Source: Methanobacteriaceae archaeon (GTDB lineage Archaea; Methanobacteriota; Methanobacteria; Methanobacteriales; Methanobacteriaceae). From it: 64,000 nucleotides of DNA. Made by a program: the position numbers and the translations under genes. Location: the NCBI GenBank assembly GCA_029219465.1, contig JAQXTL010000004.1, forward strand, positions 1 to 64,000, in the 5' to 3' direction. The number at the start of each line of letters is the position of its first letter. Within the stretch, counting starts at the first letter, position 1. The notes beneath the pieces are model-generated. The model did not search any database, had not been told where the DNA came from, and saw only the letters and a program-made list of their open reading frames with translations. This document shows positions 3,088 to 8,328 of the stretch, piece by piece.

Positions 3088-3096
3088 GTGTTTAGC

Positions 3097-3789
3097 TTGA
3101 AAAAAATAGAAAAACCAGTGGAAATTGAAGAAGGAGACTCATTTAAAGTCATTTTATCAAAATATGGTGCTTTAGCACTTGATAAACAAGAAAACTTATC
3201 TGAATTAATCGGAGAAACCATTGGAGATTTAGATATTGAAAAAGGAAACATCACCTTTGGAGATATTGAAATGCCAGTTCAAATTTTAGGTTTCTACTCT
3301 GCAGATTTAAACCAATGGTCATGGGCATGGGATAACGAAGAAATCTTTGGCGCAGACTTAATTAAAGCAGCTTGTGATATTAAAGAAATCGGAGACAAAT
3401 TCGAAGTTCCTGAATTTAACGCTCCATTAATCCAAACTGATTATGACCACTGCCACCCTATTGCAATGAGTGCAACTGCAATTTTAGGCTATGATGCATA
3501 TTATGCAGTATCTGAAGAAGGATTAGACATCTTTGTTGCAATCAAATCCGATTTAATCAAAGAAAACAATGAAGTTAAAAAGTTCAGAGACACATACTAC
3601 ACTTTCCAGAAAAACTTCAATGTATATCCTACTATTGCTTTTGAATCATACACCAAACTCAAAGGCTATGGTTTCAAACCACACGATGATTTCTACTTGG
3701 CTAAAATTGGAGAATCCCGTGTAATGGCAGGATTTACCGAAAGAGGAAATGTAACTCGTATCTTAATGTTTGGTGAAGATGAACAGTGA
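3097..3789 (+). CDS. Uncharacterised protein resembling the DUF6882 family
   Basis: About 230 residues, no signal peptide or membrane segment. Residues WSWAW, DYDHCHPIAMSA and the spacing of aromatic residues recall the DUF6882 family of unknown function; this is recognition by eye, not a search. An upstream in-frame GTG at 3088 abuts the dapL stop codon but has no ribosome site in front. I prefer the TTG at 3097, which has AGGTG six bases upstream, itself overlapping the dapL stop. The gene therefore probably depends on translation coupled to dapL. The following gene overlaps or abuts it. No function can be stated. Confidence 0.75.
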   Translation: MKKIEKPVEIEEGDSFKVILSKYGALALDKQENLSELIGETIGDLDIEKGNITFGDIEMPVQILGFYSADLNQWSWAWDNEEIFGADLIKAACDIKEIGDKFEVPEFNAPLIQTDYDHCHPIAMSATAILGYDAYYAVSEEGLDIFVAIKSDLIKENNEVKKFRDTYYTFQKNFNVYPTIAFESYTKLKGYGFKPHDDFYLAKIGESRVMAGFTERGNVTRILMFGEDEQ

Positions 3790-3794
3790 TTACT

Positions 3795-4379
3795 ATGAAT
3801 CAGGATTTAGCAGAAGAATTGGAATATATGAAAGATTTACTTGCTAAATCTGGATTTTTTGATAGTGAAGAGATAATTGAAATATTGGAAGATCAGTTTA
3901 TTGAAGAAGACATTGACTTTAGTGAATGTGAAATCTCATTAAATGATTTTTCCAATGAAAATTTCTCAAAATTAGAAAGCGTATTTACCCAATTAGCTAA
4001 TGAAAAGATTGTAGCTATTCATAATTGCGGATACGACATTAGTGAAGGTGTAAATGATGCTTTTGAATTGTATCTTCACTTATACAACAATAAATTCCAC
4101 ACCGAAGGTTTTTGTTTTTACACTTTTGAAGATATTGAAGAGTGTATTTATGATGAAAAATTAAAAATTACATTTGGCGATTTTGAAAACGATGAAAATA
4201 AAGCATTAGAAATCGGCAAAACTGTTTTTTGTTACTTAAAAGAAGCTGGTTTTAATATTAACTGGGATGAAAGCATTAACAATCAAATTGAACTTACATC
4301 ATTTAAATGGGATAAATCCTATGATGAAAGTAAGGAATATGAAATTGAAGGTGCTTATGAAGTATTTACTAAAAGTTAG
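3795..4379 (+). CDS. Uncharacterised acidic protein resembling the DUF6891 family
   Basis: About 194 residues, acidic, predicted cytosolic. The segment AIHNCGYDISEGVNDAFE and the later FCFYTFEDIEECI and LKITFGDF are reminiscent of DUF6891, a family of unknown role; the assignment is by eye. A GTG at 3786 overlaps the previous stop codon, but that GTGAT looks like the ribosome site for the ATG at 3795, so I use the ATG. It lies in the middle of a three-gene string behind dapL (3097-4972) with almost no spacing, which suggests a shared transcript. Confidence 0.7.
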   Translation: MNQDLAEELEYMKDLLAKSGFFDSEEIIEILEDQFIEEDIDFSECEISLNDFSNENFSKLESVFTQLANEKIVAIHNCGYDISEGVNDAFELYLHLYNNKFHTEGFCFYTFEDIEECIYDEKLKITFGDFENDENKALEIGKTVFCYLKEAGFNINWDESINNQIELTSFKWDKSYDESKEYEIEGAYEVFTKS

Positions 4380-4387
4380 GTGTTAAA

Positions 4388-4972
4388 ATGAATGGAAGGT
4401 CATTAAAATTAATACGTGACGTTATTATCAATTCCGGAAAGATGACATCAGTTGAAATTTCCCATGATTCAATTTACTTGCAGTTTAGTGATGTTGAACT
4501 TGGAACTCCAAAATTAGACAGCGAATTTAACTTAACCGCAAGATTTGGCGAAGATTCATTTTTAACTGCTTTTTATAACAATATCTGGGATATTGACTTT
4601 TTATCAAAATATAATTTTAAATATGAATTTCTAAGAGAAGATATTCGCCTTAATGTTAAAAACATCAGGTTTAATGACTTTGAATATTTAAATAGACTTT
4701 TTGAAAAATACCAAAAGGATAAATCAATCTCTACTGTTGAAGATTTTAATATCCGCAATATTAGAAATGACTTTTTTATGATTGTTGAAGCTGAAGATAT
4801 TGCTATCGTTTTAGGTGGAAACCAGATGGATTTCTTTACACCATCTGAAAGACTAGACGATGCAACTTTACGTGAGCTTTCTAATGAATGGATGCTTTAC
4901 TTTTTAAAATACCAGAAAAAAAGAAATCTCATAAGAGACCCAATGTGTGAAAACCATCCACTTAGATATTAG
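4388..4972 (+). CDS. Hypothetical protein, last gene of dapL string
   Basis: A 194-residue protein with no signal peptide, membrane helix, cysteine cluster or catalytic motif that I can recognise. The ATG at 4388 has AGGTG upstream, overlapping the previous stop, so it is very likely translated from the dapL transcript. A hairpin at 5005-5042 ends the unit. Composition is like its neighbours. No function is proposed. Confidence 0.75.
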   Translation: MNGRSLKLIRDVIINSGKMTSVEISHDSIYLQFSDVELGTPKLDSEFNLTARFGEDSFLTAFYNNIWDIDFLSKYNFKYEFLREDIRLNVKNIRFNDFEYLNRLFEKYQKDKSISTVEDFNIRNIRNDFFMIVEAEDIAIVLGGNQMDFFTPSERLDDATLRELSNEWMLYFLKYQKKRNLIRDPMCENHPLRY

Positions 4973-5045: not shown

Positions 5046-5675
5046 TTAATTGTTCTTTTGATTGAAAACTCCCATTATGAATTCGTATACATGCATCAAT
5101 TGGGAGTAAGGACCATAATTATGGTTGTGAATGTTACTCATATCATCTTCAATACGATCATCTACTTCTTTTACAAATGATGAATTGTTATAGTCATGAG
5201 ATGTAAAGTAGTGCACCTGAATTGCATAATTTGTATCCTCTTTAGGGAATACATAATTAACTCCAATATGACTCCAGGTTACATTATTGTCCCTTGAAGG
5301 ATTTGAGAAGTATTCTTTTGATACATTAACTCCACCAATAGTGGAATTTTCCATTTTTAAAACTTTAAAATTACCGTTTTCCATAGCTCTGAATTTTGCA
5401 TGGGAAATTGAAGTAATATGGTCTTCCGGCCAGTCATCCCAATGGTCAATGTACACATACTGATTTGTAATTGCATGAGGAGTTTTTGAATGGTTGGTTA
5501 AATTCAATTCCTCTGTAGTATTCCATGCTTCAGGAACAACAGTTACACTATGTCCAAAATCAACTGTTTTATCTGTTTGAACACTTAGAAAACTGTTTAT
5601 CCCATTAATATTTAGTGCGATGAAAATAATAATAATTACAATCACCAATGAACGTAACATATCCTCTTTTCTCAT
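5046..5675 (-). CDS. Membrane-anchored extracellular protein beside glycosyltransferase
   Basis: 209 residues. A single hydrophobic segment (about residues 8-27, SLVIVIIIIFIALNI) follows a charged MRKEDMLR start, so it is probably an uncleaved anchor with the rest outside the cell. The outer part holds several N-x-S/T sites (NTT, NLT, NHS, NST, NVS, NNS), as expected for an archaeal glycoprotein. I do not recognise a domain. It starts 9 bp after the glycosyltransferase stop and so probably belongs to the same transcript; a role in binding or exporting the polysaccharide is possible but is inference from position only. Confidence 0.75.
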   Translation of the reverse strand: MRKEDMLRSLVIVIIIIFIALNINGINSFLSVQTDKTVDFGHSVTVVPEAWNTTEELNLTNHSKTPHAITNQYVYIDHWDDWPEDHITSISHAKFRAMENGNFKVLKMENSTIGGVNVSKEYFSNPSRDNNVTWSHIGVNYVFPKEDTNYAIQVHYFTSHDYNNSSFVKEVDDRIEDDMSNIHNHNYGPYSQLMHVYEFIMGVFNQKNN

Positions 5676-5684
5676 TTTACCACC

Positions 5685-7472
5685 CTAACTTGCGTTTTCC
5701 TCAACAGGTTCCTCAATACCCTCACCAGTATGTTCAGTTTTACTCCATTTTCTTTCTTTTCTGGAAATCATATTCGCCATTGTCATAAAGAAAAGTGGAA
5801 TCAAGTGATAACAGTATATGTAATATCTTATTATATCCAAGATATATTCAATGATTCCAGGATCATCTCTTGATAATGCAATCATAGTACCTGGGAAGAA
5901 TGCAACAATTGATAAAAGCCCAACAAGAAGTGGAGCATCCATTCTGATAATTGTTACATTATTAAATACAAACCATGACACTGCATTTACAATAGTTATA
6001 ATAAAACCAAAAAAGATTAGCAAATTAAAACTGTAAAAGGAAATATGTTCAATTATTCCCATCTTTTTGACAATAGGGATTTTTGCTTTTAAAATAACCG
6101 GCAAGTAAACAAATAATGTTTCAAAGTTACCAATAGCCCATCTGACTCTTTGTCTAAATAAAGGCTTCCATTTAGCAACTGCTTCTTGGTAAACTGCACA
6201 TTCACCACAGTAACGGATTTTTCCACCTGCAAGCAATATTTTAACTGCAAGGTTTAAATCCTCAGTTACAGCAAATCCATCCCATTTTCCACAATCAATA
6301 ATTGACTGTTTTTTAACAAACTGACCGTTTCCACCTAAAAAACCAGTCATCCCAAGATTGTCCTTAGCTATTAAAGTGTTTCCAAAACTTGCAAATTCCA
6401 AATGCTGCATACGAGTCAAGTAGTTTTCATCCTTGTTAAACATTTTAACTCTTGACTGAACACCGTCTGTATCATCACAAAGATATGACATGATAATTTT
6501 TAAATAATCAGTTTTAACTTGAGTATCTGCATCAAATACACCAATAACTTCCCCTTTGGATAATGTTAATGCATCATTTAAAACAAAACCTTTACCTTTT
6601 CCAGATCTTGGAGGGTGTCTTGTAACAATCTTAAGATTAGAAATGTCTTTTTTAAGATCATGCAAGATTTCTCCTGTTGAATCAGAAGACCCGTCATTAA
6701 CAACAATGATTTCGTATTGAGGTTTTCCTTCATAGTGGTATTCCATTGCAGCAATACTCTCAACAGTTGATTTGATAGTGTATTGCTCGTTGTGTGCAGG
6801 AATAAAAATACTTACAAAAGGAAGTTTATCTCCATCTTCAATCATTTCAACTTCTTTTTGCTTTTTAATACTTGCAATAGCATTTATAATCATTGCTAAA
6901 GTAGGAATTAGCAATACCCATTGAAGCCAAGTTGCATTTCTTGTTAAAAGTGCCATTAAAATTAAACTAACACATAAAAATAAAAGTAATACTGAGTTTG
7001 ATTTTTCAACTACAAGCTCAACATTTTTTTCTCTAATCTTATCTTTTGCTTCAATAACGTTGATAGTGTTAAGCTTATGCTTTTTTAAAACAACAGCAAT
7101 AGCTCTTAAAAGTTCATCTTCTTCAATTTCCTTTATTAAAAACTGGTATGGTGAACATTCAAGAATATCTTCAAGAATATCATCATCAAACATCACTCCC
7201 ACAATAAAAATAAAAGGAATGTTGTAGTTTTCAAAGTATTGTGAAAATCTGTGTATGTCAATATCACTGTTATCAATATCTAAAAGAATTAAACTAGGTG
7301 ATTGGTTTTTAATTATCTTTTTAATATTTTTGGTGTCAAAATCAGATTTGATAAACTTATAATCTGCGTTTCCGACATACTCATCTACGAGGCCTAAGGT
7401 TTCTTCATCAGTACTTATGGTTAGAATTTTAGGCCTTTCCATAATCTGAGTATTTTGCTTTGCATCTTCCAT
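5685..7472 (-). CDS. Receiver-like domain fused to processive family 2 glycosyltransferase
   Basis: 595 residues in a single chain. Residues about 13-133 resemble a CheY-like receiver: KILTISTDEE at the start, a possible phospho-acceptor D65 in LILLDID, and a lysine near LIKE. The N-terminal acidic pair is weak, so phosphorylation is uncertain. Two membrane helices follow at about 160-200. A family 2 glycosyltransferase domain (about 218-450) has VNDGSSDSTG, FDADTQV (DxD), TEDLNL and QRVRW, the set found in processive synthases such as cellulose, hyaluronan or poly-N-acetylglucosamine synthases. About three more helices occupy 470-580. It probably polymerises a surface polysaccharide from a nucleotide sugar and passes it through the membrane. 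The ATG at 7472 has no clear ribosome site; an in-frame ATG at 7442 is possible. It lies between a lone receiver gene and a membrane protein. Confidence 0.85.
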   Translation of the reverse strand: MEDAKQNTQIMERPKILTISTDEETLGLVDEYVGNADYKFIKSDFDTKNIKKIIKNQSPSLILLDIDNSDIDIHRFSQYFENYNIPFIFIVGVMFDDDILEDILECSPYQFLIKEIEEDELLRAIAVVLKKHKLNTINVIEAKDKIREKNVELVVEKSNSVLLLFLCVSLILMALLTRNATWLQWVLLIPTLAMIINAIASIKKQKEVEMIEDGDKLPFVSIFIPAHNEQYTIKSTVESIAAMEYHYEGKPQYEIIVVNDGSSDSTGEILHDLKKDISNLKIVTRHPPRSGKGKGFVLNDALTLSKGEVIGVFDADTQVKTDYLKIIMSYLCDDTDGVQSRVKMFNKDENYLTRMQHLEFASFGNTLIAKDNLGMTGFLGGNGQFVKKQSIIDCGKWDGFAVTEDLNLAVKILLAGGKIRYCGECAVYQEAVAKWKPLFRQRVRWAIGNFETLFVYLPVILKAKIPIVKKMGIIEHISFYSFNLLIFFGFIITIVNAVSWFVFNNVTIIRMDAPLLVGLLSIVAFFPGTMIALSRDDPGIIEYILDIIRYYIYCYHLIPLFFMTMANMISRKERKWSKTEHTGEGIEEPVEENAS

Positions 7473-7506
7473 TGTATCTTATTAAATCGACATTGGGATT
7501 TAATAT

Positions 7507-7914
7507 TTAATTAAATCCACTAGCATCATTTAATTTTTGTTCTTCTAACTCCGCTCTTTTAATAGCTAATTTAAGAGTTTTATCTAATTTAGTTATTTCA
7601 TAAGGTTTTGGAACAAATCCATATGAACCTTCAATATTGGATCTTTCGAATGTATAATCATCAGTGTTTGCAGTTAAATAAACAACTGGTATTCTCAATT
7701 CTAAAATTACCTTAGCAGCATCAATTCCTTCCATGTCTCCTTTTAATTTGATATCCATTAAAACGACGTCAGGAACTGTTTCAGCAGCCATATCAATTGC
7801 ATCTTGACCAGTGCCAACTGTATCGATGACCTCATAACCTAACTCTTCTAAACTGAATCTCAAATCAAGAGCAGTAATCGCTTCATCTTCAACAATCAAT
7901 ATCCTATTTTTCAT
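7507..7914 (-). CDS. Single-domain response regulator (CheY-like)
   Basis: 135 residues, only a receiver domain. The phosphorylation chemistry is complete: acidic pair E9-D10, phospho-acceptor D54 in VVLMDIKLKG, T81 and K103 in VPKPYE. There is no DNA-binding output domain. The MDIKLKGDMEGIDAA segment is typical of receivers paired with methanogen sensor histidine kinases. No kinase gene is adjacent, so its partner lies elsewhere. The gap to the receiver-glycosyltransferase gene is 34 bp on the same strand, so it likely regulates that enzyme by protein contact or by phosphotransfer; this is inference. Confidence 0.9.
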   Translation of the reverse strand: MKNRILIVEDEAITALDLRFSLEELGYEVIDTVGTGQDAIDMAAETVPDVVLMDIKLKGDMEGIDAAKVILELRIPVVYLTANTDDYTFERSNIEGSYGFVPKPYEITKLDKTLKLAIKRAELEEQKLNDASGFN

Positions 7915-8328
7915 TTTAAATCAACATAATTATAGTAAATTAATTATAACATTTATTTGATAACATATAAAAACTTTATGAATAACAATTATAATTATGG
8001 AAATTCAATGAAAATATAATATAAATAAAATTTATTTGAAAACACCTGTTTTTTCATTAAAACTTATAAAATAATATCAAATCATATAAAAATCTTTTCA
8101 CTTGATTTTCTCATACACAATGATATAACATTCAAATCACAACACCCCATTAAATAAATAAAACCGCTCCAACTTCTAAAATAAGTCATAAATACCATTA
8201 TTGGAAAAATGATTTTACCAACAAATGCAATTTAGCCAAAAGTTTTTAAAACATGAAAAATAAAATACAATTGTTATGAAGATTTTTTAAAAAAAAATTT
8301 TCGAATCAATTTTTTAAGGAGTTATTAG
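7915..8328. other. Divergent intergenic region upstream of purA
   Basis: 414 bp of AT-rich sequence between the response regulator (minus) and purA (plus). I see A/T tracts and the purA ribosome site AAGGAG before the ATG at 8329, but no convincing dyad, RNA gene or short ORF. Confidence 0.6.

Follow-up and report, generated by a model that had tools for sequence, protein, structure and literature searches.

The question raised by this locus is why an archaeal membrane glycosyltransferase should carry a signal-receiver domain at its N-terminus while an intact stand-alone receiver is encoded directly beside it. The locus occupies positions 5046-7914, on the minus strand, of the window, that is, the whole stretch of 64,000 nucleotides analysed, which derives from a Methanobrevibacter-like member of the Methanobacteriaceae, as judged from its named relatives. 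It encodes a stand-alone receiver (hereafter RR), a fusion of a receiver with a family 2 glycosyltransferase (GT2) and a single-pass extracellular protein, with 34 bp between RR and the fusion and 9 bp between the fusion and the surface protein (Table 1). The initial annotation had described three genes in tight series on one strand, and all three open reading frames were confirmed. The linkage that it had proposed for them was also borne out by neighbourhood comparison: among relatives with the same split arrangement, RR lies directly upstream of the fusion in 24/24 loci and the surface protein gene directly 3' of the synthase in 22/23, the ends of the latter two often overlapping. On the opposite strand, at 3088-4972 of the window, three small genes (DUF6882, DUF6891 and an unassigned 194-aa family) adjoin the locus across the genus.

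Table 1. Features of the locus, with positions counted along the window
Feature	Position	Strand	Remarks
Stand-alone receiver RR	7507..7914	-	135 aa; E9/D10/D54/T81/K103 site complete; Pfam Response_reg 1.3e-18
Receiver-GT2 fusion protein	5685..7472	-	595 aa
Fused degenerate receiver, residues 13-134	7071..7436	-	Acidic pair and Thr gone, D65 and K114 retained; equivalent to receiver 2 of tandem relatives
Unbroken helix 118-177, last receiver helix into TM1; proposed coupling element	6942..7121	-	AlphaFold model; TM1 (159-177) by hydropathy
GT2 catalytic domain, residues 218-460	6093..6821	-	D314xD316, T403ED, Q441RVRW; fold match to BcsA and hyaluronan synthase
Surface protein	5046..5675	-	209 aa; anchored by an N-terminal TM segment (5-23); 8 sequons in the extracellular domain; fold weakly PsbP/Mog1-like
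Intergenic stretch, RR to purA-like gene	7915..8328	.	One or two genes for HisKA_2 kinases of ~630 aa here in congeners; absent in the window genome

The two receivers of the locus differ markedly in the state of their active sites. RR displays the features of a CheY-like stand-alone response regulator, with a complete set of E/D, D, T and K residues and no output domain, and the lone CheY-like protein with intact D54, T81 and K103 that had been annotated here was found to possess E9 and D10 as well. Among its orthologues, D, T and K are invariant in 24/24, and the acidic pair is retained by each of the 23 whose sequence extends over it. RR is also the only intact receiver detected in a genome-wide count of the window genome, and its identity within the genus (90%) exceeds that of the GT domain (80%) and of the fused receiver (57%). 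Taken alone, the N-terminal domain of the fusion stays under the Pfam cut-off for receivers (E=0.0022). A profile of the fused receivers of 16 congeners was aligned by hhalign to receiver 2 of relatives with two receivers in tandem with a probability of 99.5% (E=3e-23; 0.1% for an unrelated control), and the structure model of the fusion (mean pLDDT 84) gives this domain the alternating beta/alpha order of receivers, so that the receiver-like fold initially assigned to it is confirmed by both approaches. In the same model, the last receiver helix continues as one helix of ~60 residues into TM1. The acidic pair of the fused receiver had been regarded as weak; the site is indeed impaired, but the pair is absent outright (S20/T21 where E/D would stand) and V91 replaces the switch Thr, leaving a phospho-acceptor site that is not intact, in which D65 and K114 are retained according to the alignment, with positions read from the sequence. 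Across 23 single-fused receivers, the acidic pair was found in 1, the Thr in 1, the Asp in 18 and the Lys in 16. A decayed site beside a perfectly conserved RR fits with the idea that the fused receiver may bind rather than accept phosphate. Length and fold of the fused domain are maintained throughout the split orthologues examined, apart from L073, where the domain is highly diverged and undetected by profile. The synthase of that locus (L073:5007-9197, genome G065) reaches 1396 aa; an array of SKLD-type heptad-like repeats fills ~700 aa at its N-terminus and precedes the strongly diverged receiver. In another locus, from a single-contig genome (L061, G037:C1:1724596-1726282), the fusion gene is broken into pieces of 395 and 207 aa in different frames, RR, kinase and surface protein remaining open.

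The relationship between both receivers becomes apparent in REC-REC-GT2 orthologues, present in several genera and also as paralogues in some congeners, whose receivers are mostly intact, both of them being so in most deep relatives. The RR gene corresponds to receiver 1 (REC1) and the decayed fused domain to receiver 2 (REC2) of these tandem proteins: RR scores best against the REC1 profile and the fused receiver against that of REC2, and RR groups with REC1 in the tree (support 97/81), though some deep REC1 domains fall outside. Fission of the tandem pair is likely but not proved, because the GT tree does not discriminate between fission and fusion; genomes G045 and G086 contain a split and a tandem form side by side as paralogues. 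Genomes G012 and G013, in which searches for HisKA_2 and HisKA kinases gave no hit, have tandem receivers with substitutions in the active site (in REC2, Ser for Asp and Val for Thr), the pattern that site decay after the loss of kinases would produce. Three loci (L045:3396-4001, L047 and L048) encode, behind the tandem REC-REC-GT2 paralogue and its surface protein, a HisKA_2-like protein of ~200 aa whose H-box is divergent (HRLNNDL) and which may be a reduced kinase or a phosphotransfer protein.

At the input level, a same-strand HisKA_2 kinase gene precedes RR within three genes in 21/24 split loci, and a divergent one is present in 1 more; these linked kinases contain PAS, HisKA_2 and HATPase_c domains. 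The kinase gene is missing at the locus in the window genome and in its nearest relative, G061, which also lacks the surface protein, and a tblastn search with 83 kinase sequences found no kinase remnant upstream of RR in the window. The window genome has lost the locus kinases that nearly all split-type relatives retain. Since these kinases are absent here and lie directly upstream in relatives, the working system reaches past 5046-7914. Elsewhere in the window genome there are five HisKA_2 domains, and no HisKA-type kinase was found in it; only four of the five kinases count as intact, because the gene on contig C13 (L174, G000:C13:15500-20112) is interrupted by an in-frame TGA, an interruption that suggests continued kinase loss. 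The loss of the locus kinases and the lack of the surface protein in G061 indicate that the unit may be eroding in the window genome.

The distribution of these components across genomes links them closely to the synthase. The window genome, 99.6% complete, contains two receivers in total, both at this locus. The synthase was detected in 33 of 67 congeners, and HisKA_2 kinases in 33/33 of those with it versus 4/34 of those without (Fisher p 5e-15, with shared ancestry not corrected for), while just 2/34 synthase-free congeners have any receiver. In most synthase-bearing congeners, RR and the fused receiver make up the receiver total. Receivers and kinases in congeners therefore occur almost only with the synthase. 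Beyond the genus, every receiver found in G009, G012, G013, G108, G109, G116 and G120 sits at the synthase locus, and three of these genomes (G009, G108 and G109) also have their only detected HisKA_2 kinase there; in contrast, genera g4 and g14-g17 carry 12-26 receivers. It seems, then, that nearly all phospho-relay signalling in this methanogen group serves one synthase. The g11 relatives (G104, G105), which have receiver-less synthases of another type, were excluded. Receiver-carrying relatives were found by the genome scan only in Methanobacteriaceae and on one contig labelled 'uncultured Bacillales' (L106), whose locus has the gene order of the Methanosphaera-type G108/G109. Because of this match, transfer to bacteria was set aside, L106 being probably a misbinned archaeal contig.

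As to the enzyme itself, residues 220-447 of the fusion match GT2 families (E=2e-25; PF13641 at 90.6 bits against a cut-off of 27), and the features of processive GT2 synthases are all found, namely DxD (D314-A-D316), TED (T403-E404-D405), QxxRW (Q441-R-V-R-W445) and flanking TM helices, the motifs being invariant or nearly so in relatives. This agrees with the processive family 2 glycosyltransferase that the initial annotation had placed in the same chain as the receiver. The C-terminus carries a conserved TRKERKWxKTxH segment. BcsA and hyaluronan synthases are the top fold matches, with a mannosyltransferase also among the matches, and the best NCBIfam match is PgaC_IcaA (TIGR03937, residues 206-572), whose 132.8 bits fall far under the curated cut-off of 422.3. 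The predicted fold is that of processive synthases, and the product may be an exopolysaccharide. The downstream product had been read as a membrane-anchored surface protein with many N-glycosylation sites, and it does have one TM segment and 8 sequons, where its composition would predict 3.4; the sequons at N52 and N164 are conserved in 27/28 relatives. Its fold is weakly PsbP/Mog1/DcrB-like (Foldseek E about 1e-4, but a TM-score of about 0.35-0.45), and neither Pfam over 28 members nor a PDB profile search gave a convincing family assignment. Deep tandem loci lack the surface protein.

The best account of these observations, to which we assign a probability of roughly 0.55, is a switch on a membrane glycan synthase operated by a kinase through RR and the pseudo-receiver. 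In this account, a two-component system specific to the lineage would act on a membrane polysaccharide synthase, and the locus would encode its output end. HisKA_2 kinases, encoded beside the locus in most relatives and elsewhere in the window genome, would phosphorylate RR, and phosphorylated RR would dock on the degenerate receiver of the synthase, so that two proteins together would re-form the pair of receivers present within a single chain in deeper relatives. Docking would shift the long helix running into TM1 and thereby switch the processive GT2, which would make and export a glycan to be handled or anchored at the outer face by the TM-anchored glycoprotein encoded downstream. We infer the phosphorylation, the docking, the direction of the switch, the identity of the polymer and the role of the surface protein.

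The fast evolution of the fused receiver is as compatible with a relic as with a docking module. The domain could be non-functional and the synthase constitutive, RR being kept for another target and its adjacency inherited from an ancestral tandem fusion, and the loss of the acidic pair and the Thr, the low identity within the genus, the kinases missing from the window locus and the altered tandem receivers of G012 and G013, two genomes with no detected HisKA_2 or HisKA kinase, are all in favor of such a scenario. We consider it unlikely, since the domain keeps its length and fold in the split orthologues examined, L073 excepted, and conservation of RR exceeds that of the synthase although the two are gained or lost together, in a neighbourhood that suggests no other target for RR. 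It is improbable that the fused receiver is itself regulated, by weak phosphorylation of D65 or by another ligand, with RR acting as a phosphate sink or shuttle: the acidic pair, which binds Mg2+ in receivers, is gone in nearly all single-fused receivers and the Asp in 5/23, even if most of them keep the Asp and the Lys and most deep relatives have both tandem receivers intact. A different objection concerns the enzyme, which might not be a polymer synthase and might instead decorate lipid-linked glycans or glycoproteins such as the neighbouring surface protein. The Q-x-x-R-W motif, the multi-TM architecture, the processive synthases as best fold matches and the conserved C-terminal segment make this rather doubtful, against the breadth of the GT2 fold, the low PgaC_IcaA score, the mannosyltransferase among the fold matches and the adjoining protein rich in conserved sequons.

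If the kinase-operated switch is extended to Methanobrevibacter, the Methanosphaera-type and close genera, a broader proposal emerges, which we advance tentatively and at somewhat less than even odds. Two-component signalling would there be reduced to one dedicated circuit, from kinases to one free receiver and from this to the synthase pseudo-receiver, with the tandem pair divided into a free half that accepts phosphate and a fused half that serves for docking only, the pairing of receiver and pseudo-receiver providing direct post-translational phospho-control of polymer synthesis without transcription or c-di-GMP. If true, this would supply a concrete enzymatic target for archaeal two-component signalling, of which few outputs are known, would mean that phospho-signalling in some gut methanogens has essentially no other role than setting a surface glycan, and would bear on methanogen attachment to hosts and partner microbes. 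The genomes whose only HisKA_2 kinase and all receivers lie at the locus make the path from kinase to synthase directly testable.

The receiver-synthase fusion had been thought rare in archaea, and rare it is; it is not new, however, because REC-BcsA and REC-REC-BcsA architectures are recorded in Methanobacterium, Methanobrevibacter and Methanothermobacter in a 2018 census (Galperin et al. 2018, PMC5847659), and thus already described for Methanobacteriaceae. Compared with the MTH_548 type of that census (PMC5847659), the window protein shows the same domain fusion in the same archaeal family, but differs in having an intact receiver encoded by a gene of its own and a degenerate one in the fusion, so that it belongs to the REC-BcsA class by architecture and is doubtful as a phosphorylatable receiver. 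In a literature search thin on subscription papers, the census was the only source found for the function of MTH_548, and no prior description was found of the split, of the pseudo-receiver, of the linkage to kinases and surface protein or of the near-exclusive co-occurrence; nor is the system mentioned in a genome paper on Methanobrevibacter millerae. By comparison, the split with RR as receiver 1, the kinase linkage and its loss here, and the near-exclusive co-occurrence appear to be new.

Other known systems resemble single parts of the unit. The catalytic and channel part finds its best fold matches in bacterial BcsA-BcsB, a system that also pairs a synthase with a TM-anchored extracytoplasmic protein and likewise uses an added regulatory domain. 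BcsA is controlled by c-di-GMP through PilZ, whereas the input here is a receiver, and the surface protein is much smaller than BcsB, with no kinship to it implied. Relative to the poly-N-acetylglucosamine synthase PgaC/IcaA, the closest NCBIfam model in spite of its sub-threshold score, the fusion adds a receiver and two extra N-terminal elements. Finally, RR is a typical stand-alone receiver of the archaeal pairs formed by a HisKA_2 kinase and a CheY-like single-receiver protein, to which the PAS-HisKA_2-HATPase_c kinases linked in relatives also conform; what sets the locus apart from those pairs is that its gene series also encodes the presumed target, a membrane enzyme that bears a receiver.
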